Source of the DNA: a virus
Virus record (IMG/VR): IMGVR_UViG_3300042519_001561
Coordinates: 1-40,646 of that record
DNA: 40,646 nt
Strand: one strand, 5' to 3'
The notes under the pieces were generated by a model. The model worked only from the letters and a program-made list of their open reading frames with translations, was not told the DNA's origin and ran no database searches. This document shows, in pieces, positions 1 through 33,641 of the stretch (positions within the stretch are counted from its first letter, which is position 1; every line of letters begins with the position of its first letter). The position numbers and the translations under genes are program-made.

Positions 1-495
1 GGAGGGGGCGTCGCAGTGGCGTCTGCACGCATTAGGCGAGTTGTTGGTCTGCATCCTCGGTGGCAGACGGCTGTTGAGGGGTTTCGCGCGCGCGAGGTCA
101 AACGATTACTGGATAACGGCATGGACGCGGCTGAGATAGCCGATGCGAGTCTGGAGACGGTTGAGATTTACGCGGAAAGGTTGCGGTCGGCGCGGGCTTT
201 AACGATTGCCCGTACCGAGGTGATGGCGGCGCAAAATATGGGTCAGGTGTTGTCGTGGTATCAGGCGTCTGATGATGGTTATTTGGATATGTCGTTGGCT
301 GTAAAGGAGTGGGTGGCTGGTCCTTCTGGTTGGAAGAGCATTGAGGTGTGTCCTGTGTGTATGGAGTTGGCTGGTCAGCAGGTTCCTGTCAATGGCAGGT
401 TTAGCAATGGCGATGTGATGCCTCCGTCGCACCCGAATTGTAGGTGCACGATGAACTTGATTCCTTTGGCGTTGTTGGGCGATGGTCGTGAGTAG
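1..495 (+). CDS. MuF-type head morphogenesis protein, C-terminal part (5' end outside window)
   Basis: The reading frame is open to the left edge, so the GTG at 16 is probably internal and the gene starts upstream. The visible 3' part has the hallmark of SPP1 gp7/MuF minor head proteins: an ARTE motif (TIARTEVMAA) followed by CPVC, a short loop and a terminal PPSHPNCRC segment, which in the family forms a metal-binding or structural Cys/His cluster. MuF proteins sit with the portal inside the procapsid, and in many phages they carry C-terminal toxin domains. Here the protein ends right after the MuF core, and toxin-like domains are instead encoded as separate genes immediately downstream. The next gene overlaps it by 14 bases. 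The family call is firm; the true length is unknown. Confidence 0.85.
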   Translation, partial: GGGVAVASARIRRVVGLHPRWQTAVEGFRAREVKRLLDNGMDAAEIADASLETVEIYAERLRSARALTIARTEVMAAQNMGQVLSWYQASDDGYLDMSLAVKEWVAGPSGWKSIEVCPVCMELAGQQVPVNGRFSNGDVMPPSHPNCRCTMNLIPLALLGDGRE

Positions 496-1867
496 GTCGC
501 GCGCGGAGATTAAGTTGGCGATGCGTAAGGCGTCGTTTGCTTCACGGTCTGAAGCGGCGCGGTATGCCGCCAGCATTCGGTGGAAGGGCAATGTCAAAGA
601 GGAGAATGACCCTGACAATCCTGTGACTGAGGCTGGCAAAGAGGCGATGCGTTTGGCATCTGGTTTGGCTGGTTTTGATGAAGCAACAAATTCAATTCCA
701 CGAGGGGTCAAAACTCCCGTTTTTTATTGGTCACAAGCGTTTGGCAATACAAAAGATTCCGAGTTTGGTTCAGAGGAAGAGGCTCGCGCTTTTATAGCGG
801 AACAAAAGTTGCTTGACCCAGAAGGGGTGTTGTACATTTGGCAAGGTTCGCAAAAGCCTCGTGCAGAGTTGGTGTCTAAATTTCCCAACGGCGTCTGGAC
901 GGTTATGGATGCTCAGTTGACATTGGGCTATATCAATAACAATGTCAGACCTGTTGACCCAAGTAAGCCTCATTCGTGGGATGATATTAAATATGTTACG
1001 CCATCCAAAATTTATGGTATCAACCCTGAAACTAACGAAATAGACGACCGAAATACAATCGTGGTAGGTGATGCCGAGGGGCAAAAAGCCGATGCGATGG
1101 TCAAGAACACTAGCCCTAAGAATCCTGCGGGTTTGGATAGGGCGGGGCTTGTTTATTGGGAACGGTCAAATATGGTGAAATTTACGGGGTATGGAGAGCA
1201 GAATTATTGTTCGTCTTTGGGGTATTACGCTTCAATGCACGCAGGGTATGGTCAGCCTTATCCAAGACCTGATAATAGTTACCGTGTTGTGCACAAGGTC
1301 AGGGAAGGCAAATTGATGGATTTAGCACAAAATCTTGTTGATTCTTTAAGAAACGCTCCTAATGCTCAACCGACATTGTGGAGAGGCATCGGGGCGTCAC
1401 ATCAAACAGAAATTAAAAATGCAGGAAAGGTAACAAAGGATTCCGAGGTTGGGGATACTTTTACTGTTGGGTTAGGGGCGACATCGCGTTCTATTGCGGC
1501 GGCGCGGTTTTATGCCACGCCATATTCCTACAACACAAACGAAGATGGAATACCAACGCTTATGCGTATTAAGGCAGGTTCTAAAGGGTTGGCATTAAGT
1601 TCAAAGATGAGTGCTTATCCTCACGACCAAGAAGTTTTGACGAGTGGCGAGTTCAGGATTGTCGGTAAAGAAGTGGTTAACTTGAGCCAAAAGGCAAGAA
1701 GGGTTGCTGAACAGCGGATGCGAATAGCAGATGTTCAAAAACTTCCGTCGGGGACAAGAGGCAAGACTGATTTGCTGGCAAGGGAGCAAGAGGCTTTGAA
1801 AGATGTTTTAGAATCGCGTGATAGAGAGTTGTTTACGATTATTGATGTAGAACAGGTCAGTGTGTAG
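482..1867 (+). CDS. Tagged ADP-ribosyltransferase-like effector
   Basis: A 461-residue protein that starts inside the MuF gene, so the two are translationally coupled. Residues 16-37 carry the shared tag. The C-terminal half fits the R-S-E type ADP-ribosyltransferase fold: Arg301 in TLWRGI, an STS-like strand GATSRS around residues 333-337, and a catalytic Glu384 in DQEVLTSGEF. The residue two before the Glu is Asp382, where Glu or Gln is usual, so activity or target choice may be atypical. Members of this fold transfer ADP-ribose from NAD+ to host proteins; T4 Alt is the classic phage-packaged example. The middle (about 60-220) is unrecognised. No signal peptide is visible, which fits delivery with the virion rather than secretion. 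The fold call rests on motif order, not a profile search. Confidence 0.68.
   Translation: MVVSRSRAEIKLAMRKASFASRSEAARYAASIRWKGNVKEENDPDNPVTEAGKEAMRLASGLAGFDEATNSIPRGVKTPVFYWSQAFGNTKDSEFGSEEEARAFIAEQKLLDPEGVLYIWQGSQKPRAELVSKFPNGVWTVMDAQLTLGYINNNVRPVDPSKPHSWDDIKYVTPSKIYGINPETNEIDDRNTIVVGDAEGQKADAMVKNTSPKNPAGLDRAGLVYWERSNMVKFTGYGEQNYCSSLGYYASMHAGYGQPYPRPDNSYRVVHKVREGKLMDLAQNLVDSLRNAPNAQPTLWRGIGASHQTEIKNAGKVTKDSEVGDTFTVGLGATSRSIAAARFYATPYSYNTNEDGIPTLMRIKAGSKGLALSSKMSAYPHDQEVLTSGEFRIVGKEVVNLSQKARRVAEQRMRIADVQKLPSGTRGKTDLLAREQEALKDVLESRDRELFTIIDVEQVSV
527..592 (+). repeat. Tag copy 1 (protein residues 16-37)
   Basis: Peptide KASFASRSEAARYAASIRW followed by KGN, close to the N-terminus of the ART-like protein. 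It is preceded by MRK rather than the [LVF]EK seen in most other copies. Confidence 0.9.
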
Positions 1868-1869
1868 TT

Positions 1870-3468
1870 ATGGCTCATTTAGGTAATTTGTCGGGGCTGT
1901 TTTTTAGTCATCAACTTCAACCAGATGATGATTTGGAGAAGGCTAAGTTCGCTTCGCGTTCTGAAGCCGCGCGCTACGCGGCGAGCATCCGCTGGAAAGG
2001 CAATGTCAAGGGGGATGACGACGGTGTGGATACGCCACTGAAGTTAGCGCAGGATGCTTCGGTGTTACGAAAGGAATACGGCGATTTTTTGGATGACACG
2101 AGCGCGGGGATGAGCGGTATTTTGCTCAGTCCTGACGAATGGCAACTTTATGGGTTTCAGGCAGGCGACCAGAGGTATGTGTCTGTTTATATTGGTGGAG
2201 TTCGGCACACTGTGCCAACCAAAAAATTGTTGCAGTTGGAGCAGAAAGTGTGTGCTATTGGAGAACGGGCAAGGGCGTTGGCGCAAGCATCGGTGGTTTT
2301 TGACGAGCCGTTGACTGAGGAGCAACAGGGAGAAATCAATCTTGCGCGACAGGCTATGGAAAAAAACATTACAGAGCAGTCGGGCGGGGTATTGGGTGGT
2401 TATAACGGTCAGCCATCCAAGGCTATCAATATCTATCATCAAGACGAAAGTTTTGGCGGTCCAGGTTTTTACATAGGCTTACACACGATGGCAGACTGGA
2501 ATCTTGTGTCGCCAAAAGAGACTGAGGGTGGTTTTATGAAAGACCTTGAGATTTTTTTCGCGGATGCTAAAAAGGTGCCGACGGGTGTCAAAAAAGCATA
2601 TGATGCGTTGGTCAAGTTTCAGGCTTCGGACAAAACTTACGAGCCTGATGAAGATGATGCCGAACCAGTGCCGATGTCTGAAGCGGCGATAAGACGGACA
2701 ACAACACTTCTCTTAAATAACCTAAACAAATCTTTGCTTCGCAATGGCAATAAATGGATTGAAAGTTTGACGGGTAAACCTCTGACTCAGTGGAGCAAGG
2801 AACGCCGTGATTTGGGCGACCCTGATGAAACAAAGTATGAACTCGCACAAAGAAACGAAAAGAAACTGGCAGATGCGTATGCAGATGTAATGAGGGGCAT
2901 GGGTATTGATATCGGCAGACCCCCTGAAACGGTAAAAGATGGAAAGTACGACCGAAAATTGCAAGAAGATGTCAGAAAGATTTTTCCAAGTCGCATTGTA
3001 AAAGAAGTTCAAAAATCTTTCGGGGCGATTCGCACAATAAAAATTCCAGGCGGAGGGTCGTGGAATACGATTGGAAGCGTTATTAAAACTTCTGGTGGAA
3101 GAAGCACTAATCTTCACGAGTTTATGCACGCCGCTACTTATGCTGACCCTGTGTTGAGGTCGTTGGAGAATGCGTTTCTTGAACGGCGCAGAATGGGCGA
3201 CCCTAAGCGCACGCGGGAACAATATGATGTGTCAGAAAGAATCACTGCTATAGAACCCTATGATTCAGTACGAGGCAAATACGGTGGTGCTTATGTTAAA
3301 GACCAGTTATCTGACCCTTACGCTGGTAGAAAATACTCCCTTGGCGGTGCAACCGAGTCTTTGACTAGGGGTTTGGAGTTTTTAGTTGCGGACAGGTTCA
3401 ATAGTGATGATGATGACCACAAGAATTTTACTTTGGGGGCTTTAATTATGGCAGGCACGGCACCGTAA
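1870..3468 (+). CDS. Tagged HExxH metallopeptidase-like effector, copy A
   Basis: A 532-residue protein starting 2 bases after the previous stop. The tag lies at residues 24-45, after a short acidic stretch (PDDDLEK). The C-terminal domain has a zinc-peptidase signature: HEFMH at 416-420, then a conserved YVKD..SDPYAGRKY block and GATESLTRGLEFL, in which Glu496 is the likely third zinc ligand. This arrangement (HExxH, DPYxGxxY, TExxxxGLE) recurs in phage head-associated metallopeptidase or toxin domains. The C-terminal domain is shared with the protein at 4714-6273; the middle regions do not obviously align. The substrate is unknown and could be a host protein or a virion protein. The next gene starts on the last base of the stop codon. 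Confidence 0.68.
   Translation: MAHLGNLSGLFFSHQLQPDDDLEKAKFASRSEAARYAASIRWKGNVKGDDDGVDTPLKLAQDASVLRKEYGDFLDDTSAGMSGILLSPDEWQLYGFQAGDQRYVSVYIGGVRHTVPTKKLLQLEQKVCAIGERARALAQASVVFDEPLTEEQQGEINLARQAMEKNITEQSGGVLGGYNGQPSKAINIYHQDESFGGPGFYIGLHTMADWNLVSPKETEGGFMKDLEIFFADAKKVPTGVKKAYDALVKFQASDKTYEPDEDDAEPVPMSEAAIRRTTTLLLNNLNKSLLRNGNKWIESLTGKPLTQWSKERRDLGDPDETKYELAQRNEKKLADAYADVMRGMGIDIGRPPETVKDGKYDRKLQEDVRKIFPSRIVKEVQKSFGAIRTIKIPGGGSWNTIGSVIKTSGGRSTNLHEFMHAATYADPVLRSLENAFLERRRMGDPKRTREQYDVSERITAIEPYDSVRGKYGGAYVKDQLSDPYAGRKYSLGGATESLTRGLEFLVADRFNSDDDDHKNFTLGALIMAGTAP
1939..2004 (+). repeat. Tag copy 2 (residues 24-45)
   Basis: KAKFASRSEAARYAASIRW then KGN. From the Phe onward, 21 residues are identical to copy 1 although 12 of the 21 codons differ synonymously. 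Confidence 0.9.
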
Positions 3469-4709
3469 TGAAACAGTGGTTGTTTTCTGTTGGCGGTAAG
3501 CCTCGTTACGCGCGGTGGGACGGCGTGTTGGATACTGACTCTGTTGAGTTGCGCGAGGAGGCTGATGCGTTGATTGCTCAAGGGGTGATGGTTGAGTGTG
3601 CCGAGGTGGGTTATCTCCGCAAGGCTTCTTTTGAAACAAGGGTAAGGGGTTGGGGCACGATTACGCGGGCTGTTGTTATGGTCGCTGATTCTGGCTCCAT
3701 TGAGTTCCCGTTTTCGTATTTCAACCATAGTTGCATTGAGGAAGATGATGTGGAGAAGGCGTCGTTTTCTTCGCGCAGTGAAGCGGGAAGATATGCCGCC
3801 AATCAACGCTGGAAAGGGAATGCGAAACAAGAGGGCGCGCCAGAACTAAACGGCATAGAGCAAATGAAATCTCAGGTCAAAGAAATGCAATCTAAAGTTG
3901 CCGAGATTCAAAAAGAACAACAAAAAGTGCAGAAGGAAATCGCGAGAGCCAACAGCATCCCTAGTCGGAGGCACTATTTGGGCGGATTAAGAAACAAATC
4001 AAGGTTTCTGGATGGAGAAACAAGAGATTTATTCAACCAAATCGCTCCTTTAATTGAGGTCATTCAAAGAGATGCCGACGCGCGGATGTCAACTTTTCGT
4101 CAAGAGTCAAGATTGGATACAACATCTACAGCCGAAGAGTTTGGCGACAAGTTGTATGACTTACAGCAGATGAGTGCCAAGGTGGATGCGTCGCCGTGGG
4201 GTCAAGACCGTTTGCATCCTGAACCTGATTTGCAGTCGTCGGAGCCTGAAAAGTTCCAAAAATTAAGGGATAGGTGGGTTGTGGCGGACGACCCAACTTT
4301 GAAAATGAATAAAGCGTTGCGGGGCGAAGCGCCGATGACCGCAGGGGATAAAGCAAGGGCGTCGGAGGCTAAATGGTTGACAAAGGGTGTAGCGCCTGAG
4401 CCGTTTGTTGTAACACGCACGATGTCTTTGCCTCTGGAAATGGCAATGTCAATTAAAAAGGGGTTGGTGTTTGAATCTAAGGGGTATCAGGCAAGCGAGC
4501 GCGGTATTGGCTCTATCTACAATCGTCAACAACAGAACCCCGGCAGTATTCACACAAGAATGTTTATTCAGGTTCCTGAAGGTTCTCACATGGCGGATGT
4601 AGGGTATGGCGAAATCATTTTGCGCCCCGGTCGTCTCAAGATTGTGGCAAGCGATTGGGATGGCGAACAGTTGGATGTTATTGCCGAGTTAGTACCGCAG
4701 GAGGCTTAA
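3468..4709 (+). CDS. Tagged protein: cassette domain A + tag + ART-like C-terminus
   Basis: 413 residues, starting in a TAATG overlap with the metallopeptidase-like gene. Residues 1-90 (domain A: WDGVL, LIAQG, GWGTITRAV, FPFSY) are homologous to the stand-alone 101-residue protein at 6274-6579. The tag is at 97-118. A Lys/Gln/Glu-rich segment at roughly 120-160 looks like a coiled coil. The C-terminal third resembles an ADP-ribosyltransferase fold: Arg317 in VVTRTM, a middle strand around ESKGYQASE, and Glu382 in YGEIILRPGRLKIV. The position two before that Glu is Tyr380, not Glu or Gln, so the enzyme may be divergent or inactive. The ART assignment is weaker than for 482-1867; the domain A homology is clear by eye. 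Confidence 0.55.
   Translation: MKQWLFSVGGKPRYARWDGVLDTDSVELREEADALIAQGVMVECAEVGYLRKASFETRVRGWGTITRAVVMVADSGSIEFPFSYFNHSCIEEDDVEKASFSSRSEAGRYAANQRWKGNAKQEGAPELNGIEQMKSQVKEMQSKVAEIQKEQQKVQKEIARANSIPSRRHYLGGLRNKSRFLDGETRDLFNQIAPLIEVIQRDADARMSTFRQESRLDTTSTAEEFGDKLYDLQQMSAKVDASPWGQDRLHPEPDLQSSEPEKFQKLRDRWVVADDPTLKMNKALRGEAPMTAGDKARASEAKWLTKGVAPEPFVVTRTMSLPLEMAMSIKKGLVFESKGYQASERGIGSIYNRQQQNPGSIHTRMFIQVPEGSHMADVGYGEIILRPGRLKIVASDWDGEQLDVIAELVPQEA
3756..3821 (+). repeat. Tag copy 3 (residues 97-118)
   Basis: VEKASFSSRSEAGRYAANQRW then KGN. Here the tag is internal, between domain A and the coiled-coil/ART part, so the tag need not be N-terminal. Confidence 0.9.
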
Positions 4710-4713
4710 TCTG

Positions 4714-6273
4714 ATGGACATTGTAAAACCAAACGATGATGCGTCTTGGCGTATGAAGCGCATTAGTGATGGGCAGTTGGAGTTAGTTCAAGACGATGAT
4801 TTTGAGAAGGCTAAGTTTGCTACGCGGTCTGAAGCGGCGAGATATGCGGCGAGTATTCGCTGGAAGGGCAATGTTAAAGGCGACGATGATGGCGGTCGTG
4901 ACCCTGTGTTGGAGCAGGCAATCGGGCGGGTACGCGCGATGGTTAACCAATTAGGCAGGCTTCCTATGGGTTCTGCGGCGGATGACGAGGTTTTCGCCGC
5001 TGACTGGAGCAAGGTTGTTGACACATTGTTTGTGCATGTAACAGACAAAGGGTTTATTCCTACGGCTCCTGTAATGGCTGTGGAGACGGAGATTCGGGCA
5101 CTTGGTAAAATGGTGTACGAAAGTTTGACGGGAAGTGGGGCGGCGGATTCTGCTGAAGAAGCCGACAAAAGAGAACTTGAAGCGATGCGTACAAAACAAA
5201 CAACTTTAGAGTTGGCGGAAGTGGCTTTGGCAAAAGTTATGAGTAGCCCTGCTTTGGCTGGAATTGACCAAGAATTAAGGGTTTTGAGGAAAGAGCACAG
5301 GGAGGCTTCCAAGGCAATGATGCAGGCAACGAAAGACATGGCTGACAATAAAGTGCCTTGGGGCAATCGCCAAACACCAGAACAGCGCGAGGCGTATTAC
5401 AAGGCATTTGCAGAAAGAAAAATTCAGCAAAAACTCAAAGCAGAACTCAAACTCCAAATGGATTCTAAGCAAAAGAAAATTGATGAAGTGGTGAGGAACA
5501 CGGTTTTTCGCACGGCAGAGGGGGAGTCTATCTTTCTAAGTGGCGCGGCGAAGCATGCTGAAAAGACCTTCCAAGAAGCCATTGTAAGAAGCAGTGTGAC
5601 GGGGGTGGATTTGGCTGAAGCGGTTACAAAGTTGGTGTCTCAATATCGGGGCACGGGTGGGCAATTACAGATTAAAGCGGCAAAAATGAAAGGGGATTTG
5701 ATGGGCAAACCATCAGAAGGTGCCGATTTTGTACAGAAGTATGTAGGCGATATTGCAACTCACATGCCAAAAGAGTGGGTTGACGATGTGAACGCTAAAT
5801 ACGGGGCTTCACTGGTTCTAGTCAAGACTAAAGGAGGGGGGTCGTGGGCACAGTTGACGAGGGAAATTAGCACTTCTGGCACAACACAAGTCAATTTGCA
5901 CGAATTCATCCATGCGGCGATGTACGCCAGCCCTGTACGGCAGGCTATAGAGCATGCCCATCTGTCTAAAAGAACATTTGGTTCTGCTTCTGCACCGATA
6001 GATGGTTCTTTTCAATCAAAGATTGTTAAAGGCAGACAGAAAACAGTCGGCACTATTGATTACCCAACGGGAGAATCCATTTCTCAGGGAAACTATGTAA
6101 AAGACAAATGGGTTGACCCCTATTCAGGGCGTATCTACAACAGTGGTGGAACTGAAGTAGTGACGGTGGGCTACGACTCTTTCTCGCGGAGCGGGTGGCG
6201 CGCGAGCGCGACTTTAGGAAAGTTGGATATGGAACAGGTGTATTTGACTTTGGGATTGTTGATGGCGTCGTAG
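4714..6273 (+). CDS. Tagged HExxH metallopeptidase-like effector, copy B
   Basis: 519 residues with a good ribosome site (GCAGGAGG) 10 bases before the ATG. The tag is at 32-53, preceded by QDDDFEK. The C-terminal domain is a paralogue of 1870-3468: HEFIH at 396-400, YVKDKWVDPYSGRIY, then GGTEVVTVGY with Glu481 as candidate third ligand. The HExxH-to-Glu spacing is 85 residues here and 80 in copy A. After the Glu the sequence reads VGYDSF instead of RGLEFL, so the region behind the active site has diverged. The middle is long, helical and Lys/Glu-rich (about 120-300), suggesting a coiled coil. As in copy A, a domain A gene follows at once. Confidence 0.66.
   Translation: MDIVKPNDDASWRMKRISDGQLELVQDDDFEKAKFATRSEAARYAASIRWKGNVKGDDDGGRDPVLEQAIGRVRAMVNQLGRLPMGSAADDEVFAADWSKVVDTLFVHVTDKGFIPTAPVMAVETEIRALGKMVYESLTGSGAADSAEEADKRELEAMRTKQTTLELAEVALAKVMSSPALAGIDQELRVLRKEHREASKAMMQATKDMADNKVPWGNRQTPEQREAYYKAFAERKIQQKLKAELKLQMDSKQKKIDEVVRNTVFRTAEGESIFLSGAAKHAEKTFQEAIVRSSVTGVDLAEAVTKLVSQYRGTGGQLQIKAAKMKGDLMGKPSEGADFVQKYVGDIATHMPKEWVDDVNAKYGASLVLVKTKGGGSWAQLTREISTSGTTQVNLHEFIHAAMYASPVRQAIEHAHLSKRTFGSASAPIDGSFQSKIVKGRQKTVGTIDYPTGESISQGNYVKDKWVDPYSGRIYNSGGTEVVTVGYDSFSRSGWRASATLGKLDMEQVYLTLGLLMAS
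4807..4872 (+). repeat. Tag copy 4 (residues 32-53)
   Basis: FEKAKFATRSEAARYAASIRW then KGN. Apart from one Ser-to-Thr change it matches copy 2 through the following NVKGDDDG, again with many synonymous codon differences. Confidence 0.9.
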
Positions 6274-6579
6274 ATGAAGTGGCTTTACAGCAGGGGAAAC
6301 AAAAGGTTTGATGCGTTGTGGGATGACGGGGTGTTGTCGTCGTCGGATGATTTGCTGGTTTCGTCTGTTTCGCAGTTGATAGAGGACGGCGAGATTGTGC
6401 CGTGTGGGGTGGTCGGACCTGATTTGCCTGCCAGTCTTGATGACGAGGTGGTTGCTTGGGGCACTATTAGTCAGGCAGTGCGTTCTGTGAGGACGGGTAA
6501 AAGTAGGTTCCCTGTTTGCCCTGTTGCTCCAGAGACGACTTTGGAGGCTGACGCGGGCGAAGGCATGTGGGCGGTCTAG
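6274..6579 (+). CDS. Stand-alone domain A protein, companion of the metallopeptidase-like gene
   Basis: 101 residues, with its ATG directly after the TAG of the metallopeptidase-like gene. It matches residues 1-80 of the protein at 3468-4709: an N-terminal W-[LF]-x-S strand, GVL, LIEDG..VPCGVV, then VAWGTISQAVRSV and RFPV. In both places domain A sits immediately downstream of a tagged metallopeptidase-like gene, which points to a functional partnership such as inhibitor, chaperone or structural partner. It has no tag, signal peptide or membrane segment. I do not recognise the family. Confidence 0.7.
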   Translation: MKWLYSRGNKRFDALWDDGVLSSSDDLLVSSVSQLIEDGEIVPCGVVGPDLPASLDDEVVAWGTISQAVRSVRTGKSRFPVCPVAPETTLEADAGEGMWAV

Positions 6580-6626: not shown

Positions 6627-8531
6627 ATGCACCCCGATTCAACATCAAAACTGCTTGCCATGTGGGAAGAGGGCGAATTGGAGTGGGACGACCTGCCAGA
6701 AAGCACCCGTATGGCGCTTGAGGACAGCGAGGATGAACAAAACGCTGTTTATGACGACGATGAAGAGGACGACGGGGGGAGCATGGATGAGTTGTTCACC
6801 GTTGATGTAGAAAAATCGCTGGATATGGAGTTGCTTCATAAAGCCAACGAAGAGCACCGATTCACTCTTGGACCTTGGTATATCCCCAACCAGTATGACG
6901 CTCACGGCGAGTGGACGGACGCTGAGGAACTTCAAAAGGCGTTGTGGGACTATGTGCAGACAGGCGATAGGGGTATCAGACTTCAGCACAATAAGGATTT
7001 GGTGGCTGGGGAGTGGCTTGAGGCGATGTCGTTTCCTGTCCCTGTGACTATCGGGATGACCAAGGATGCGACAACGAAACAGGTGACTTATCCTGCTGGG
7101 ACTGTGTTTTTGGGTGTGCAGTGGAAGCCGTGGGCTTGGGAGATGGTCAAGGCGGGCAAGATTACTGGGTTCTCTATCGGCGGAGCGGCGGCTCGTTTGG
7201 ATATGAGCATGCCTGTTGAGGTTGGCAAGGGTGTTTCCCGCAAAGGGTTTTCTTCTCCTAGCGACCCTGTTTTGTTTTCGCAGGTTAAGAAAGAAACCAA
7301 TGGAGTTGGCGTCTGGGAAGAGTATGTCGCGCGCGGGGGTACTGCTCGGTGGATGTCTCAGGCTGAGGCAAAGTTGTTAAAGGCTTCGTTCGCGTCGCGT
7401 TCGGAGGCGGCTCGTTATGCGGCGAACATGCGTTGGCGTAACTTGAAGGCTCGCACTGCGGAGTTGGCTCAGTCGCTTGGGATAAACGAGAGCGGGACAC
7501 CTGTACGAGGTCCGATGCCGATGCCTAAAACAAAGCAAGGGCGGGCGATGCGACAAGCAATGAAGTCGTTGGATGGGCATATTGATTTTGATAAGGCTTA
7601 TCAGGCGTGGGTTGACGCAGAAGGCAACGAGGAGCAGGATGTTCCGCTTTTGAAAACGGGTGAAAAAGTCCCTTACCATTTTTTGCGGTTGCACATGACG
7701 CCTGAAAGAGCACAGTTGCATGACGAAATTGTTGAGTTTGAGATGGCGGGCAAGGTAAGACGCCCTTCATCGGATAAGCCAGTGTTTGTTTTCATGGGCG
7801 GTGGACCTGCTTCTGGTAAGACAACCATGTTGAAGTCGGGTGACATTACTGTTCCGACAAGAGGTGCAGACGGAAAACTAAAAGAAGGCGCAGATTCAGC
7901 GCATGCTATTGAAATTAGCGCGGACGAATACAAAGCGTTTATCCCTGAATACGAGGCTTTAAGGCGAGGCAGAGGAGGGGAAGCGATGCGTATGAAAGCG
8001 GCGGGCATCGCACACGAAGAGTCGTCCATGATTGCAAAAGCAATTCAGCGTCGGGCTATGGATTCGGGTGTGGACATTGTGTTGGATGGTCTTGGCGATA
8101 GTGACAGAGGCTCTCTGATTGGCAAAGTAAGGCGCGCTAGAGAAGCGGGCTATCAAGTAAGGGGCTTGTACGCAACGATTCCTACGGAAGTGGCTGTTGA
8201 ACGCGCGTCGGCTCGCGGGAAACCAGAGGGTGTGCAAACAACGGTTTCAGAAGGTTTTACTATCACTGGCGAGGGGCGCTATGTAAGCCCTCTTATTGTG
8301 CGGGCGGCTCACGCGAAGGTAAGTGCTGTTTTGCCGTCGGTTATTGATGAAGGTGTTTTTGACGAGGTGACGGTTGTTGATACCAAGTCTCGTCCCGCGA
8401 AAATCATTTATCGTTATGACAGCGAAGCCAAAGGCGATGCGAAAGGCACGGTCGTTGACAGTGCTGGTTGGCAAGCATTTTTGGATAAAGGTGAAGGATT
8501 TGATGAAGGCAGGTCGTTAATTGGACTCTGA
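6627..8531 (+). CDS. XkdF-type prohead protease - tag - zeta-toxin-like kinase fusion
   Basis: 634 residues with three parts. Residues about 75-200 look like the XkdF family of phage serine proteases: TLGPWYIPNQYDAHGEWTDAEEL, candidate catalytic His121 in RLQHN, and Ser183 in GKITGFSIGG. The tag follows at 252-270. Residues about 335-600 resemble a zeta-toxin/UDP-GlcNAc kinase domain: Walker A GGGPASGKT at 391-399 (Lys398), ISADEYKAFIPEY, AHEESSMIAKAI, VDIVLDGLGD, and GYQVRGLYATIPTEVAVERA. Zeta toxins phosphorylate UDP-N-acetylglucosamine and block peptidoglycan synthesis; other P-loop kinases share the fold. The N-terminus is very acidic (residues 30-50). Position ahead of scaffold and capsid genes fits a maturation protease. 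The fusion to a toxin-like kinase across the tag is unusual. Confidence 0.75.
   Translation: MHPDSTSKLLAMWEEGELEWDDLPESTRMALEDSEDEQNAVYDDDEEDDGGSMDELFTVDVEKSLDMELLHKANEEHRFTLGPWYIPNQYDAHGEWTDAEELQKALWDYVQTGDRGIRLQHNKDLVAGEWLEAMSFPVPVTIGMTKDATTKQVTYPAGTVFLGVQWKPWAWEMVKAGKITGFSIGGAAARLDMSMPVEVGKGVSRKGFSSPSDPVLFSQVKKETNGVGVWEEYVARGGTARWMSQAEAKLLKASFASRSEAARYAANMRWRNLKARTAELAQSLGINESGTPVRGPMPMPKTKQGRAMRQAMKSLDGHIDFDKAYQAWVDAEGNEEQDVPLLKTGEKVPYHFLRLHMTPERAQLHDEIVEFEMAGKVRRPSSDKPVFVFMGGGPASGKTTMLKSGDITVPTRGADGKLKEGADSAHAIEISADEYKAFIPEYEALRRGRGGEAMRMKAAGIAHEESSMIAKAIQRRAMDSGVDIVLDGLGDSDRGSLIGKVRRAREAGYQVRGLYATIPTEVAVERASARGKPEGVQTTVSEGFTITGEGRYVSPLIVRAAHAKVSAVLPSVIDEGVFDEVTVVDTKSRPAKIIYRYDSEAKGDAKGTVVDSAGWQAFLDKGEGFDEGRSLIGL
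7380..7439 (+). repeat. Tag copy 5 (residues 252-271)
   Basis: LLKASFASRSEAARYAANMRW, lacking the KGN that follows most copies (RN here). It marks the boundary between the protease and kinase domains. Confidence 0.9.
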
Positions 8532-8736
8532 TATTTTTACTAAGGTTTTTTTGAGGTCTGGTCTTGGCACTGACAGACTTTTGGAGTTGTACGCAATGGT
8601 TATTGGCGGCGCTGACGCTGGTGATTGTGATTTGACAACCCCTGATGAGGGTGTGCTGTTTAGTTTGTTAAAAGCCGATGTTGATGGCACTGTGTTGCCT
8701 GATGGAGTTATATGGGATGTGCCTTATGAGTTGTGA
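8521..8736 (+). CDS. Small acidic protein after the protease-kinase gene
   Basis: 71 residues. The TTG start overlaps the end of the upstream gene by 11 bases, with a purine-rich GGCAGG just before it. Contents include FLRSGLGTDRLLELYAMVIGGAD and an acidic, glycine-containing C-terminus ending IWDVPYEL. No known family, membrane segment or signal peptide is seen. Its position directly behind a zeta-toxin-like domain makes an antitoxin or chaperone role conceivable, but nothing in the sequence resembles epsilon antitoxin. It could also start at the ATG at 8596, giving 46 residues. Confidence 0.45.
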   Translation: MDSDIFTKVFLRSGLGTDRLLELYAMVIGGADAGDCDLTTPDEGVLFSLLKADVDGTVLPDGVIWDVPYEL

Positions 8737-11149
8737 TTGTGGTTGTGGGGATTGGAATTTGTCTAAGGCTGATGTCACTGTTTTGAAGCAGTTGCGCGAG
8801 GGCGTTTTGGCTGATTTGCCAATGTCTATCTGGCAGTCGTTGATTGTGGATGTGGAAAAAGCGGGTGGGGTTCTTGCGGTGGAGGGCACTGCGGGCAAGG
8901 TCATCCGCGAGGCTGTTCAGAAGGCTTCTTTGTCTCCTGCTTGGCAACGCAAGGAAGGCAAGAATCCAAGTGGCGGTCTGAACAAGAAGGGGCGTGATGC
9001 GTATGCCCGCGAAACGGGTGGCAAGTTAAAGCCTCCTGTGAAGGAAGGCGATAATCCGCGTCGGGCGTCGTTTTTGGCGCGAATGGGCAACGCAGAAGGT
9101 CCTGAGCGTAATCCTGATGGTTCGCCTACGCGTCTTTTGCTGAGTTTGCAGGCTTGGGGTGCTAGTTCTAAGGAAGATGCTCGCGCGAAGGCTAAGGCAA
9201 TTTCAGCGAGGAATGAAGCCGTTGAAAAGGCGAAGTTCGCGTCGCGTTCTGAGGCGGCTCGTTATGCGGCTCAACAGCGGTGGAAGGGGCATGCGAAAGA
9301 GGGCGACAGCAAGACAACAGCGCCTCGTCCTGCATCTGGGTCTAAAGGCAGAGCAGGAAAAAAGGTTGCTCCTAAGCCGAGTTCGGCTGGTCGTGGCGAC
9401 GGAACTGATGCTGTCGGGCAAGAGGGAAACGCAACGGTCAGGTTTGGCGAGATGTCCAAGAGCATTGAATGGGCTTTTTCTAAAGACACTTTAGTTAAGG
9501 CGGGTTTGAGGTTAAAGAGTCAGGGGTATGGAGAGAAGGAGGCGACGGAGGCTGAGTTAAAACTTGGACAAGATGCGAAAGAGTCTCTCAAGAAAATCTT
9601 GGATGAAGAAGGCGTAAAGGTTCAGGAGGCGTTAGATAATCTCGGCAAAGGGTTTATGCCGTCATTGCAAATAAGCATTTTGGAACGGTCAAGGGGTCTT
9701 TTGAGGAGGCAAGCAAAGGCTACTGAGCGCGAGGCAGAGGAAAAGGGTTTGGTACCCACCCAGCGTGAGGAGAACACTGTTGGCTCTATGGTTTACACGA
9801 CCAAGCGAACAATTCTTGAAAACATGGCTGACTATGTTGATTTGGAATTAAAGCGCGCTAATGCGACTCTTAAACCCAAAAAAGGCAAAGGAGAAGTAAA
9901 CGATTTTATTGACTTTCCTGATGCTCAACGCGACCGTAGGAATACTGAAAGAACAACTTTGAGGGTTAACGGCAAATCGCGTACATATCAGCCGACTAAA
10001 GTTAAGGCGTCCGAAATTGCCAAGGGCGACATTGTTCGTAACGAGTCAGAGGTAGAGCCTCGTAAGGTTGTTGCTTTTGGCGGGGACACACGGACTGACA
10101 CTTCTGTTGGTAAAGCGCCTGTTGTGCTTATTACGCAGTCGTTGGACGGCACCGACGGCAAATTGCAGACTTCTAGTAGCAGTGGCGATTCTAAATTGTT
10201 GCGGTTTGACGAGGTAGTGGATAAAGCAATGCCTCAGGGCGCGGGCGACCCTCGTTCTAATGCGGGGCGTTACGCCGCCGAGCAACGCTGGAAGGGGCAC
10301 ACCAAAAAGACAGAAATTGATGCCAACCTCAGAGAACAGGGCAAAAAGCCGATTGCGGGCGGGGAAACTAATCAAGACCCATCTGGCGATGTGATTGACA
10401 CTTTGGTTGAGGCTTTGTCGCAGTACAAGGCTGGTAATCAAGTGGTTGTTCCAGCGGAGTCGGTTTATACGGTTTTGGGAGAGTTGGCGGCGTTCGCGAA
10501 AGATGCGAAAGACAAGGGCGATAAAGCAACTGACTTGGATTTGTGCAAGGTGTCGGTGCCGGGCACGAACTTGTTTTGTGGGGAGAATAAGGGTTTGCTT
10601 CGGGAGGAGATGCCTCAGTTATCTGGTGTTCCGACCAAGGGTTCTAAAGCAGACGGCATGGAGAAGGACAAAAAGGGTCGGGCTAATATCGGTGAAGCGT
10701 TTGTGGAGCATTTACGCGACGGCGGGGTGGAGACGCGCGAGGGCGAGGTGCCCGCGTCTAGTTTGAAAGCAACTCAAAAGCAGGTGATTGGTGCTGATGT
10801 CGCGGGGATTATGAAGGCGTTGGAGGATGGCTCTATGCCTGAGCAGACGCTTTTTGTGTCTCGTGATGGTTATGTGATTGACGGGCATCACCGCTGGGCG
10901 GCGGCTGTTGGGCTGGACTACAAGGATGGCAAGGCGGGCGATTTGAAGATGAAGGTGCGGGTTATTGATTTGTCTATTGATGAGGTGCTGAAAAAGGCGA
11001 ACGCTTTTGCTGATGAGATGGGAATGCCTCGTCGTTCTGGCGATGCAAACGCAGATGCGAAGCGCAAGGACAATGATGATGAGCCAAGCAAAGGCGACGG
11101 CAAAGGCAAAGACAAGAAGAAAAGCAAAGGCAAAAAGACCGAAGGGTAG
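8717..11149 (+). CDS. Tagged multidomain protein: DUF6321-like + two tags + ParB/Srx-like domain
   Basis: About 810 residues if the ATG at 8717 is used (GGAG nine bases upstream); ATG 8726 is also possible. The N-terminus is Cys-rich (SCDCGCGDW), then a W..LIVDVEKAGGVLAVEG segment similar to the N-terminus of the protein at 11188. Residues about 75-160 match the DUF6321-like phage domain (PSGGLNKKGRDAYARETGGK, GDNPRRASF, PTRLLLSLQAWG). The first tag starts at residue 171; a reduced second tag lies near 513. The C-terminal 200 residues contain a ParB/sulfiredoxin-like fold: SSLKATQKQV, LFVSRDGYVIDGHHRWAAAVG (Asp722 begins DGHHRW). The end is a Lys/Gly/Asp-rich tail. ParB-like domains of this type bind nucleotide and may act as nucleases or CTPases; this protein's activity is unknown. 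Confidence 0.65.
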   Translation: MCLMSCDCGCGDWNLSKADVTVLKQLREGVLADLPMSIWQSLIVDVEKAGGVLAVEGTAGKVIREAVQKASLSPAWQRKEGKNPSGGLNKKGRDAYARETGGKLKPPVKEGDNPRRASFLARMGNAEGPERNPDGSPTRLLLSLQAWGASSKEDARAKAKAISARNEAVEKAKFASRSEAARYAAQQRWKGHAKEGDSKTTAPRPASGSKGRAGKKVAPKPSSAGRGDGTDAVGQEGNATVRFGEMSKSIEWAFSKDTLVKAGLRLKSQGYGEKEATEAELKLGQDAKESLKKILDEEGVKVQEALDNLGKGFMPSLQISILERSRGLLRRQAKATEREAEEKGLVPTQREENTVGSMVYTTKRTILENMADYVDLELKRANATLKPKKGKGEVNDFIDFPDAQRDRRNTERTTLRVNGKSRTYQPTKVKASEIAKGDIVRNESEVEPRKVVAFGGDTRTDTSVGKAPVVLITQSLDGTDGKLQTSSSSGDSKLLRFDEVVDKAMPQGAGDPRSNAGRYAAEQRWKGHTKKTEIDANLREQGKKPIAGGETNQDPSGDVIDTLVEALSQYKAGNQVVVPAESVYTVLGELAAFAKDAKDKGDKATDLDLCKVSVPGTNLFCGENKGLLREEMPQLSGVPTKGSKADGMEKDKKGRANIGEAFVEHLRDGGVETREGEVPASSLKATQKQVIGADVAGIMKALEDGSMPEQTLFVSRDGYVIDGHHRWAAAVGLDYKDGKAGDLKMKVRVIDLSIDEVLKKANAFADEMGMPRRSGDANADAKRKDNDDEPSKGDGKGKDKKKSKGKKTEG
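9227..9292 (+). repeat. Tag copy 6 (first tag in the ParB-like protein)
   Basis: VEKAKFASRSEAARYAAQQRW then KGH, separating the DUF6321-like domain from the central helical region. Confidence 0.9.
10253..10300 (+). repeat. Tag copy 7 (reduced, second tag in the same protein)
   Basis: Only the core remains: RSNAGRYAAEQRW then KGH, preceded by GAGDP instead of EKA[SK]FAS. It lies just before the C-terminal segment that ends in the ParB-like domain. Confidence 0.82.
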
Positions 11150-11187: not shown

Positions 11188-12177
11188 ATGATGAAGCGTA
11201 GTGATGAAATAGTGTTGGACGGGCTAGAGCCTTTTGCTCTTGAAATGGTTTCGGCTGAACAGTGGGCTTTGGCGAAGCAGGCTGTGAATGATGCGGGTGG
11301 CATTTTGGCTTCTGATGGTGCGGTTCGTGATTTGCTTGAGAAGGCTTCGTTTGCTTCTCGTTCTGAGGCTGGTCGTTACGCGGCGAACATGCGTTGGCGT
11401 GGTTCGGTTCCGCAGGGTGGTTTGGCTACGGCTCAGTACCGACAGGCAGAAAATGCTAAGGCTGGTCGCGGAGCGGGGAATCCAGCAAGAGAATCCGATT
11501 CTGACCCTGCCAATCCTGACGATGAGCAATCACGAAAGATGGCTACTCGCGCGCGAAGCATTGCTGAAGGTGATTTGTCGGATATCGCGTCAATTATTCG
11601 TCGCGACTTTAGAGAGCAAGGCAAAAAGATTCCACCTGCCGCGCAACCGTATTTGGATGCTTTGTCAACTTTGGGGACGGTTGATGACCAGTACGGCATG
11701 GATTCAGGCAAGTCCATCGTGGCGTATGCGTTGAGCAATCTAGGTTCTTACAAGGGTGAGACGGCACGGCTGGTTAAGGCTGAGTTGAAGGCTCGTTTGA
11801 AGGGCAAGCAGGCTGATGCTCGTTCAGAAACCAATGACAGTCCTGAGTTCACTGGTAGAACTACTGGTCGCCAAGGCGGACCTGCCGAAGGACCAAAATA
11901 CAAAAAAGGTATGAGTCTGAAAGAGATTACGGCGAATGTTCGTCAGGATTTGAAGGCAGTAAAATTGCCAGCGGGCGTAAAACTTGGGGTTCGCATGAGG
12001 GACGGTTTGGCTGTTGTCGTTGATATCAAGGGCTACACGGGCGACCAGCAGAGTCCAGAGGCTAAAGCACTCAGAGATGAAATAGATGCCATCAGAAGGT
12101 CTTACAACCGTAGCAACAGTGACCCTATGGTTGACTACTCTGACGAAACCTATTACGGCAATACAGATTTCAACTAA
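11188..12177 (+). CDS. Tagged LPD29-like polyvalent-associated protein
   Basis: 329 residues; ATG 11188 or the adjacent ATG 11191. The N-terminus (EQWALAKQAVNDAGGILASDGAV) resembles that of the protein at 8717. The tag is at 52-71. The middle (75-230) is unrecognised. Residues about 241-329 fit the LPD29 pattern from polyvalent proteins: SLKEITANVRQDLKAVKLP, GVKLGVRM, a short beta pair, then SNSDPMVDYSDETYYGNTDF, which parallels the family's SDxMxDYFDxxFY ending. LPD domains accompany enzymes in proteins delivered by phages and conjugative elements; their own function is largely unknown. The domain call is from memory of the motif and should be tested by profile search. Confidence 0.62.
   Translation: MMKRSDEIVLDGLEPFALEMVSAEQWALAKQAVNDAGGILASDGAVRDLLEKASFASRSEAGRYAANMRWRGSVPQGGLATAQYRQAENAKAGRGAGNPARESDSDPANPDDEQSRKMATRARSIAEGDLSDIASIIRRDFREQGKKIPPAAQPYLDALSTLGTVDDQYGMDSGKSIVAYALSNLGSYKGETARLVKAELKARLKGKQADARSETNDSPEFTGRTTGRQGGPAEGPKYKKGMSLKEITANVRQDLKAVKLPAGVKLGVRMRDGLAVVVDIKGYTGDQQSPEAKALRDEIDAIRRSYNRSNSDPMVDYSDETYYGNTDFN
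11341..11403 (+). repeat. Tag copy 8 (residues 52-72)
   Basis: LEKASFASRSEAGRYAANMRW then RGS. It shares NMRW with copy 5 and the Gly of SEAGRY with copy 3. Confidence 0.9.
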
Positions 12178-12922: not shown

Positions 12923-13705
12923 ATGACAAAACCACAAACTCGCAAGATGGTGGCTTTGAAAGTTCTTGAGACAAGTGGCGTTGACCATCCAGCACATTTA
13001 GAAGAAGGCTGGATAGTTATGAAGAATTCAACAGGAGCAAAGATGAGCGAAGAAGTCGGTATGGAATCAGGTCTGGAAGAGGCTTACATTGAGCGCGTGG
13101 TGGAACTTGAAAAAGCCCTTGCTGATGCTGAGTCAAAGAATGACAACTTAGAGTCCCGTTTGGTCAAGGCGTATGAAATGCCTAAAGCCAAGGATGAGGA
13201 TGAAGAGGAAATGGACGAAGAGGACGAAGAGGACGAAGAGGAAATGGCAAAGTCTTTGCTAAAGTCCGTTCCTGAGCCTGTTCGCCAGATGCTTCAGAAA
13301 GCACAATTTGATGCTGACTTCGCGCGCGAGGAACTTCGCAAAGAACGCGAGTCAAAGCGCGACCGTGAATATGTTGCTAAGGCTCGCCAGTGGGACAATC
13401 TCACTCTTGACCCTGAAGAAGTTGGACCTGCACTTCGCCGTTTGGCTGATGCAGAACCAGTTTTGTCCGATGCGATTGAGAAGGCTCTTGACGCGGTTAA
13501 CGCTCAGGCTGAATCAGCAAGCATTTTTGAAGAATTGGGTCGTGGCACAAGTTCACAATCTGACTCTGATGCTTTCTCCAAAGTTCAAAGTCTGGCTAAG
13601 TCAGCGTATGAGCGTGGAGATTTCGCGACTATTGAGCAGGCTATTTCTGCCACAGTCGCTACCAACCCAGACCTCTACACCGCGTACCGTGCGGAAACTC
13701 GTTAA
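12923..13705 (+). CDS. Capsid scaffolding protein
   Basis: 260 residues. The N-terminal block VLETSGVDHPAHLEEGWIVMK is common at the start of phage prohead protease/scaffold proteins of the XkdF group. A highly acidic run (residues about 92-110, Asp/Glu/Met) is followed by a long charged helical region (REELRKERESKRDREYVAKARQW) and a helical C-terminus, all typical of scaffolds. No catalytic motif is present; the protease function is in 6627-8531. It lies two genes before the major capsid gene, as expected. The ribosome site is GAGG at 12914-12917. Confidence 0.75.
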   Translation: MTKPQTRKMVALKVLETSGVDHPAHLEEGWIVMKNSTGAKMSEEVGMESGLEEAYIERVVELEKALADAESKNDNLESRLVKAYEMPKAKDEDEEEMDEEDEEDEEEMAKSLLKSVPEPVRQMLQKAQFDADFAREELRKERESKRDREYVAKARQWDNLTLDPEEVGPALRRLADAEPVLSDAIEKALDAVNAQAESASIFEELGRGTSSQSDSDAFSKVQSLAKSAYERGDFATIEQAISATVATNPDLYTAYRAETR

Positions 13706-14135: not shown

Positions 14136-15086
14136 ATGCCACAGCCAACTCAAAATGCAGTCCATGTTGACGCGATTCTGACAAACATCAGTACCGCCTA
14201 CATGCAACAGGCAAAGAACTTCATTGCCACACGGGTTTTCCCTATCGTGCCAGTGTCAAAGCAGAGCGACAAGTTCTTCACTTACACCAAGAACGACTGG
14301 TTCCGCGACGAAGCGCAACGACGCGCCGACGCTACCGAGTCCGCTGGTGGAGGTTACAACCTCTCAACAGATTCGTACCAAGCAGATGTGTATGCGTTCC
14401 ACAAGGATATCGGCGACCAAACCCGTGCTAATGCGGATGCGCCTATCAATGTTGACCGTGAAGCGGTTGAGTTTGTTACAAGCCGTTTGCTTCTCAAGAT
14501 GGAAACACAGTTTGTTGCTAACTATTTCACCACTTCTGTGTGGGGAACTGACTACACACCTTCAAACCTTTGGTCTAACTACGCAACCAGCGACCCAATC
14601 AGCGACATTGAAACTGGCAAGCGCGCCATTTTGTCGGTGACGGGTTACGAGCCAAACACTTTGGTTCTTGGTTACGATGTTTTCACATCTTTGAAGAATC
14701 ACCCTGACCTCGTTGACCGTATTAAGTACACTTCTTCGCAAATCATCACAGAGGAACTTCTTGCTTCTTTGTTTGATGTGCCTCGCGTGATGGTTGCTAA
14801 GGCTGTCAAGGCTACGAACAACGAAGGTGCCGCTGGTGCCTACGCGTTCACTCATGGCAAGCATGCCCTTTTGACCTACTCTGCACCGTCTGCTGGACTT
14901 CTTCAGCCTTCTGGTGGTTACATCATGTCTTGGACTGGTGTTTCAGGCGGTTTGGGTGCCACTGTCGGTACAAGTCGTATGCGTATGGAACAGTACAAGG
15001 CTGACCGCGTTGAGGCTGAAATCGCTTTTGACATGAAAGTAATCGGTACAGACCTTGGTTACTTCTTCAACGGCGCTGTCGCTTAG
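14136..15086 (+). CDS. Major capsid protein
   Basis: 316 residues, AGGAG ribosome site. Features match major capsid proteins of many actinophage-type siphoviruses with an HK97-like fold: FIATRVFPIVPVSKQSDKFF near the N-terminus, the WFRDEAQRRADATESAGGGY loop, YAFHKDIGDQTRANADAP, and a C-terminal EQYKADRVEAEIAFDMKVIG strand. There is no obvious long N-terminal delta domain, in keeping with a separate scaffold. It assembles into the icosahedral shell. Highly biased, C-ending codon choice (GAC, AAC, ATC) stands out against neighbours. Confidence 0.88.
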   Translation: MPQPTQNAVHVDAILTNISTAYMQQAKNFIATRVFPIVPVSKQSDKFFTYTKNDWFRDEAQRRADATESAGGGYNLSTDSYQADVYAFHKDIGDQTRANADAPINVDREAVEFVTSRLLLKMETQFVANYFTTSVWGTDYTPSNLWSNYATSDPISDIETGKRAILSVTGYEPNTLVLGYDVFTSLKNHPDLVDRIKYTSSQIITEELLASLFDVPRVMVAKAVKATNNEGAAGAYAFTHGKHALLTYSAPSAGLLQPSGGYIMSWTGVSGGLGATVGTSRMRMEQYKADRVEAEIAFDMKVIGTDLGYFFNGAVA

Positions 15087-32959: not shown

Positions 32960-33628
32960 ATGGGCGGTTACAAACAATTTACTCCAGCCACTTTGACTTC
33001 TACGGATGTTAATGCGTATCTAATGAACCAGAGTGTGATGGTGTTCGCTACTTCCACTGCTCGTGCTACTGCTCTTGCTTTTCCAACTGAGGGGATGGTC
33101 ACTTACCTTCAAGATACTAACTCTACTCAATATTACACTGGTTCTGCTTGGGCATCTTTGGCTACACTTGCTTCTCCTACTTTTACAGGCAATGTGACAT
33201 TGAGTAGTGGAAATATAACTATCCCCAATCAGCCTGCATTTTATGCCCAGACAACAAGCCCCTCTGGAATAGTGCAGACAAACACTGTCATATTGTTAAA
33301 TAACCCAATAGTTAATAGAGGGTCTGCCTATAACTCTTCCAATGGTCGTTTTACCTGCTCAACTGCTGGCTTGTACCAATTCTTTTTTGGAACAATCAAA
33401 ACTGATGGTAAAGACGCTGATGTGAGCAGATTTCGTATTAGAAAAAATGGCACAAATGCTTCCACTGAATTAAGATTGTCGGAAAGCGGAGGCTACGGAG
33501 AAAGTTCTTCATTAGTTTGTTTAATCGCATGCAATGTAAATGACTATGTGGATGTTTTTATTGGTGCTGACACAGGGGGATGGTATGGCAACCAATACGC
33601 ACACTTCGGCGGATTTTTAATTGGTTAA
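32960..33628 (+). CDS. Tail fibre-like protein, N-terminal cassette + C1q-like domain
   Basis: 222 residues. Residues 1-68 repeat the 28368-type cassette (GYKQFTPATLTSTDVNAYLM, EGMVTYLQDTNSTQYYTGSAW). The SPTFTGNV linker and a C-terminal C1q-like domain follow (VNRGSAYNSSNGRFTCSTAGLYQFFFG, DYVDVFIGADTGGWYGNQYAHFGGFLIG). The tip sequence is unlike the other three C1q-like tips, as expected for receptor-binding domains under diversifying pressure. Confidence 0.68.
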   Translation: MGGYKQFTPATLTSTDVNAYLMNQSVMVFATSTARATALAFPTEGMVTYLQDTNSTQYYTGSAWASLATLASPTFTGNVTLSSGNITIPNQPAFYAQTTSPSGIVQTNTVILLNNPIVNRGSAYNSSNGRFTCSTAGLYQFFFGTIKTDGKDADVSRFRIRKNGTNASTELRLSESGGYGESSSLVCLIACNVNDYVDVFIGADTGGWYGNQYAHFGGFLIG

Positions 33629-33641
33629 CAATAAAGGAAAA

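Follow-up and report, generated by a model that had tools for sequence, protein, structure and literature searches.

A prohead protease joined to a zeta-type kinase through a repeated tag, and a candidate lysine cutting rule for the XkdF family

Architecture and recurrence of the protease–kinase fusion

The viral contig IMGVR_UViG_3300042519_001561 from IMG/VR (40,646 nucleotides; the whole stretch is called the window below) contains, at 6627..8531, one open reading frame (ORF) of 634 amino acids in which an acidic N-terminus, an XkdF prohead protease domain, a linker, a short sequence element that recurs in neighbouring genes (the tag) and a zeta-type kinase follow one another. A first-pass annotation had described the ORF as a single frame joining an XkdF-type protease, the fifth tag copy and a zeta-like kinase with intact Walker A, and this description was confirmed by Pfam matches and a tag scan. 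The fusion ORF, the tags, the predicted cut sites and the head genes mapped with them all lie on the plus strand.

The protease domain (residues 67-196, 6825..7214) matches the Pfam family Peptidase_S78_2/XkdF (PF14550) over residues 67-190 (E=5.3e-11; 43.0 bits against a curated cut-off of 24), which places the stretch first read as the protease (residues 75-200) within the family and not outside it. D91 (6897-6899), H121 (6987-6989) and S183 (7173-7175) are invariant in 14/14 XkdF proteins, phages of archaea, Firmicutes, Proteobacteria and Actinobacteria included, in support of the earlier proposal of His121 and Ser183 as candidate residues, which belong to the predicted active site; K72 is invariant in the family. 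In the window and in its relatives, the XkdF gene lies between the portal/MuF and the scaffold/capsid genes.

The kinase module that is common to other fusions spans residues 294-623 (7506..8495). Its Pfam core, residues 379-588, matches Zeta_toxin (PF06414) with E=6.8e-23 (81.6 bits, curated cut-off 22.3), and the Walker A motif GGGPASGKTT, which starts at residue 391 (7797-7826), is intact. A Foldseek search returned 4z8v (5e-9), 1gvn (1.5e-8) and 2p5t (5e-7), the nearest fold being AvrRxo1, followed by the zeta/PezT toxins. By sequence and fold, the domain is thus a zeta-type kinase. Since AvrRxo1 came first and zeta second, the fold does not point to a single kinase substrate. The sequence itself is divergent from solved zeta toxins, as would suit a decayed or structural relic devoid of activity, and a PDB sequence search for relatives found none, the weak matches being unrelated chance ones. 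However, the fusions all conserve Walker A, D433, R526, R530 and R551, and the fold matches zeta and AvrRxo1 kinases, which makes a relic very unlikely and kinase activity likely. Among annotated phages, the best match was a zeta-containing minor head protein of cyanophage PSS2, which, unlike the fusion, has no tag.

We found the order XkdF–tag–zeta in 11 distinct viral contigs, namely the window and 10 others (L001, L023, L024, L032, L040, L042, L063, L076, L082 and L103). Since the fusion recurs in these 10 contigs, a sequencing artefact caused by a lost stop codon was ruled out. The L063 fusion contains additional tag-bounded modules in between (three tags, 1205 amino acids), the L034 fusion has a different cargo (XkdF–tag–X–tag–ParB-like), and XkdF occurs without tag or kinase in L029 and L035. 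The L034, L029 and L035 variants indicate that what follows the protease is exchangeable, with tags as the borders of the exchanged cargo.

The tag and the genes that carry it

Tag copy 5, LLKASFASRSEAARYAANMRW, occupies residues 250-270 of the fusion (7374..7436) and consists of a lysine element with a predicted cut, LLK252|A, followed by the helix RSEAARYAANMRW. It is one of eight copies in seven ORFs of the 40.6-kb window, all located between a MuF-type head protein and the scaffold. An alignment of 109 distinct copies gave the consensus phi-x-K-A-x-F-[AG]-[SD]-RS-[EA]-A-[GA]-RYAA-xx-RW, and conservation fades within a few residues outside it. Within the tag, the near-invariant helix core RSxAGRYAAxxRW is far more conserved than the lysine site. 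The helix is basic, and in the fusion residues 258-283 were modelled as helical. The possibility that the tag is a known domain was ruled out, as Pfam contains no relative of it and the PDB no meaningful one.

Two IMG/VR scans recovered 223 tags in 175 non-redundant ORFs at 63 loci, some of which share one contig, nearly always within the head gene block. When 84,980 genomes of bacteria and archaea were scanned, 177 pattern matches came up, none of them confirmed at that sensitivity, and a tblastn search of phages with the bare 29-amino-acid tag gave no match. Typically, the portal and MuF genes come first, then tagged ORFs and XkdF, in some cases further tagged ORFs, and finally scaffold and capsid; some tagged ORFs lie upstream of the portal. 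The cargo of the 175 ORFs falls into about 47 clusters, and its Pfam domains include ADP-ribosyltransferases, GNAT acetyltransferases, DUF3626, DUF6321 and DUF5872. Up to four tags occur per chain, sited at domain borders; the clearest tag-separated modules were seen in a 1156-amino-acid polyprotein with four tags that is encoded directly behind MuF (L024, 4188-7655).

Pre-tag modules and cargo occur in shuffled combinations: the 20 ORFs of one pre-tag family lead into nine or more cargo clusters, and the nine members of one cargo family stand behind several different pre-tag families. Such free combination would be expected if the tags were inert linkers or recombination points left by ordinary domain shuffling in mosaic genomes. 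This explanation is barely credible, though, considering that the core residues are near-invariant in the 109 tags, that the tags are confined to phage head-module genes and that, among same-residue codon pairs of the window tags, 54% differ compared with 63% expected for random draws. The differing synonymous codons also rule out a recent DNA duplication, and they indicate selection on the protein rather than recent DNA copying.

The remaining window copies lie on both sides of the fusion. Upstream, copy 1 (527..595) is in ORF 482-1867, which is ADP-ribosyltransferase-like by inspection without a Pfam match; copy 2 (1939..2007) is in ORF 1870-3468 (LHEFMHAA), copy 3 (3756..3821) in ORF 3468-4709 and copy 4 (4807..4875) in ORF 4714-6273 (LHEFIHAA). 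The carriers of copies 2 and 4 are tagged paralogues with HExxH (LHEFMHAATYADP and LHEFIHAAMYASP), zincin-like by inspection and without a Pfam match. Downstream, ORF 8678-11149, with DUF6321 and a ParB-like C-terminal part, carries both copy 6 (9227..9289) and the divergent copy 7 (10250..10312), the latter preceded by VDK516|A, and copy 8 (11341..11406) is in ORF 11188-12177. The C-terminal part of the MuF-type minor head protein (1..495) forms the left border of the tagged block, and the major capsid protein (14136..15086), which has no N-terminal phi-x-K-[AS], forms the right border of the head block.

Just upstream of the fusion, the untagged 101-amino-acid ORF 6274-6579 resembles the pre-tag (N-terminal) part of ORF 3468-4709 and represents a free-standing copy of a pre-tag module, which also occurs in L001 and L015. 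Its product is a possible loading partner; as a relative of the pre-tag module it is not obviously an antitoxin, no antitoxin search having been made. In the tail fibre region, 33621-35381 encodes a long protein that starts at TTG and has low-complexity stretches rich in Thr and Ser.

A lysine element in scaffolds, XkdF flanks and tags

The predicted scaffold of the window (12923..13705, 260 amino acids) contains nine phi-x-K-[AS] sites (K64, K82, K88, K110, K114, K126, K153, K187 and K226), where 0.8-1.0 are expected (0.83 in one count), an approximately ninefold excess. In scaffold homologues, 74 sites were observed compared with 10.3 by shuffling (z=21), whereas the reversed motif, a control that keeps the composition and helical spacing of phi-x-K-[AS], occurred 11 times, again compared with 10.3. 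The tags behave in the same way: phi-x-K-[ASG] is found in 97 of 107, compared with 14.6±3.7 by shuffling and 7 for the reversed motif. Between 3 and 9 residues separate the lysine site from the helix, and in divergent tags the site persists at other spacings; the two elements are therefore separable, and the tag can be described as a cut site plus a helix. At the N edge of XkdF, the phi-x-K motif is present in 21 of 25 proteins and the reversed motif in one of 25, and the site at the C edge is kept even in relatives that lack the tag helix there.

In eight further XkdF phages, whose hosts are distant (Enterococcus, Lactococcus, Arthrobacter, Vibrio, Rhizobium and Haloarcula), lysine again ranks first at P1 in the scaffold. 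When 19 Bacillota XkdF loci (L116-L134) were pooled, lysine was observed 104 times outside the protease domain compared with 24.2 expected, whereas E, R, D, Q, N, T, S or A at P1 stayed near expectation with no clear excess. At Bacillota loci with a short protease ORF, the lysine excess usually lies in the next ORF instead. The excess at phi-x-K-[ASG] around XkdF proteases thus appears general to the family, beyond the phage group studied here.

As a control, the same P1 test returned E for T4 gp22, consistent with the L/I-x-E specificity of T4 gp21 (PMC9026906), and the scaffolds P22 gp8, T7 gp9 and lambda Nu3, from phages without a prohead protease, gave no P1 excess. The cut mapped for the HK97 gp4 prohead protease at K103|S104 (PMC10275583) reads FNK|S in the HK97 record and so fits phi-x-K|[AS]. 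On the basis of the scaffold and XkdF-locus statistics together with the T4, P22, T7, lambda and HK97 controls, XkdF proteases very probably cut by the rule phi-x-K|[A/S/G]. A literature search for an XkdF cut site, or for the mature termini of HSTV-1 or HHTV-2, found no data.

Other head proteins were considered as substrates. Capsid, portal and tail proteins were rejected, as none showed phi-x-K enrichment comparable to that of the scaffold. Most MuF proteins have one phi-x-K-[AG] site near the N terminus (in L014-L041, a lone site within about the first 10-35 residues of most), a position that suggests an N-terminal propeptide. The capsid protein of HHTV-2 (L047, 10202-11386) carries VTK|S and IEK|A within its N-terminal 50 residues; in this archaeal XkdF virus, they may be sites at which the capsid protein is cut on maturation.

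Alternatively, phi-x-K-[AS] might mark cleavage of the scaffold and XkdF while the tagged cargo is protected, the tag lysine being coincidental or structural. Ten of the 107 tags indeed lack [ASG] after the lysine. However, the site is present in the other 97, far above expectation, and even divergent tags retain it, spaced differently, so that protection of the cargo is quite improbable.

A further possibility is that the tag is never cut and acts as a docking or DNA-binding helix, in which phi-x-K-A-x-F belongs to the docking surface and repeats provide avidity, the fusion staying whole and hitch-hiking into the head. The far stronger conservation of the helix core than of the lysine site is in keeping with this. 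Tags are also more similar within a genome than between genomes (0.768 versus 0.645), and zeta-linked tags resemble the other tags of their own genome more than orthologous zeta tags (0.710 versus 0.623), as expected if tags share a binding partner. Against it, phi-x-K-[AS] also crowds the scaffold and borders XkdF in places that lack the helix, the spacing between lysine site and helix is variable, and one tag would be enough for an uncut chain, yet up to four are found, at domain borders. Overall we regard an uncut helix as somewhat unlikely.

Several observations weigh against a tag cut by XkdF according to this rule. The motif is short, and the fusion ORF also matches it inside folded domains (K104, K175, K323, K403, K471 and K621), so context must matter; we presume that these matches are buried, which is an assumption. 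Within the phage group, the scaffold homologues do not count as independent sequences, although independence largely holds for the distant phages and the 19 Bacillota loci. Tagged proteins show a mild excess outside the tags (180 compared with 107 by shuffling and 135 for the reversed motif), the HHTV-2 protease ORF has no lysine excess, just 10 of the 19 Bacillota XkdF loci have the N-edge motif, and V, M, R or K follows the lysine in several tags. Structure prediction, which had been proposed for both domains, succeeded for the kinase, with its match to zeta and AvrRxo1 folds, and failed for XkdF: the AlphaFold models (two jobs; pLDDT 30-60 and 54) were too poor to yield a usable fold for comparison with that of herpes proteases.

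Predicted processing and relation to known head-cargo systems

Applied to the fusion ORF, the rule predicts cuts at VEK63|S (6807..6818), at LHK72|A on the N edge of the protease (6834..6845), at VGK201|G on its C edge (7221..7232), a site also found in relatives without a tag at this place, and at K252|A. The predicted products are the protease (residues ~73-201), a linker and a tag-helix–kinase fragment (253-634). Cleavage at or near the tag, as the first-pass annotation had proposed, is therefore probable in view of the motif in nearly every tag, in the scaffold and in the XkdF flanks, and of the HK97 pattern; the processed part envisaged there (about residues 50-277) is replaced by the boundaries above. 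With the cut ahead of the helix, the kinase would keep the tag helix rather than lose it.

We favour, with reasonable though far from complete confidence, the interpretation that the fusion is a head-packaged polyprotein cut by its own XkdF domain, as part of a T4-like head-cargo system; cleavage, packaging, ejection and toxicity are all read from sequence. Besides the motif statistics, the recurrence of the fusion, the gene order and the shuffling of upstream modules and cargo around the tag speak for this interpretation. Polyprotein, scaffold and the remaining tagged proteins would enter the prohead together. As the head matures, XkdF, acting as a serine protease (H121, S183), would cut after lysine at phi-x-K|[A/S/G], releasing itself at K72|A and K201|G, freeing the kinase at K252|A inside the tag, breaking up the scaffold and trimming the other tagged proteins at the same element. 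Every released cargo, the kinase included, would then begin with the basic tag helix (RSxAxRYAAxxRW), which most likely holds it in the core or on DNA, so that the cargo stays in the head until it leaves along with the genome; scaffold, shell and DNA are candidate binding partners of the helix. In the new host, the kinase would act early on a small molecule such as UDP-GlcNAc, NAD or another nucleotide; the role of the helix and the kinase substrate are inferred.

In T4, the internal proteins IPI-III and Alt bear capsid-targeting sequences, are cut by the gp21 prohead protease and are ejected (PMC9026906). The two systems have in common unrelated cargo with a shared short element, encoded with the head genes. 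T4 cargo is packed with the scaffold and cut at a tripeptide motif common to the scaffold (PMC9026906), a parallel that is drawn here from sequence. However, the T4 targeting peptide is N-terminal and removed, whereas the present tag is often internal and repeated, and its helix is predicted to stay; the predicted cut follows lysine rather than glutamate, and the protease itself carries cargo. Among prohead proteases, HK97 gp4 (Peptidase_S78) has a cut, FNK|S, that matches phi-x-K|[AS], but it belongs to a separate Pfam family (PF04586), its scaffold is part of the capsid protein and it has no cargo. Giant-phage propeptides (PMC10052503) are also among the closest kinds.

Polyvalent proteins of phages and conjugative elements, as described in a survey (Iyer 2017, PMC5512222), likewise combine many effector domains per chain near head genes, among them zeta kinases, ADP-ribosyltransferases, metallopeptidases and ParB domains, and an assemblin-like peptidase was proposed to process them. 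According to that survey the peptidase is always C-terminal, whereas XkdF here is N-terminal or central with cargo after it; text searches of the survey gave no common tag, cut motif or XkdF name. In MuF polymorphic toxins, toxin domains are joined to a head protein and delivered on infection (Jamet 2017, PMC5576092); their carrier is MuF, while here it is the protease, MuF being a separate ORF.

Cargo fused to the XkdF family is also found in the Arthrobacter and Microbacterium phages Salgado, Ottawa and ValentiniPuff, in the form of a 2H phosphoesterase; the Salgado and Ottawa junctions carry LTK|A or ITK|S. These fusions differ in having no tag, a different enzyme and their cargo on the N side. 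Arthrobacter/Microbacterium phage proteins of this type (L010, 11269-12390; L012, 8257-9396; L011, 6925-8097), with phi-x-K-[AS] at the junction in L010 and L012, are labelled 'RNA ligase', 'aldolase class I' or 'capsid maturation protease'. As they are 2H phosphoesterase–XkdF fusions, the RNA ligase label hides a prohead protease. The features that distinguish the present system from its closest known kinds are the common internal tag, the lysine rule and a protease with its own C-side cargo.

In the broadest reading, to which we give about even odds, an uncultured tailed-phage lineage loads its heads with an exchangeable set of host-acting proteins, made as polyproteins that the protease cuts, by means of a module of ~25 residues, a lysine cut site plus a helix kept as the N-terminus of each released cargo, with the protease carrying and freeing its own toxin-like kinase; more generally, phi-x-K|[AS] would be the XkdF cutting rule, and sequence would suffice to recognise the effectors that many phages carry in their heads. 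The rule offers a concrete cutting specificity for a widespread, little-studied prohead protease family, and the tag lists probable injected proteins from sequence alone, 175 ORFs here, many without a known domain. If the interpretation is correct, head maturation, scaffold breakdown and the release of an entire set of host-acting enzymes all depend on a single protease, whose own chain would include one of them, the toxin-like kinase. The ~25-residue packing and release module could also serve to load phage heads of laboratory strains with proteins.
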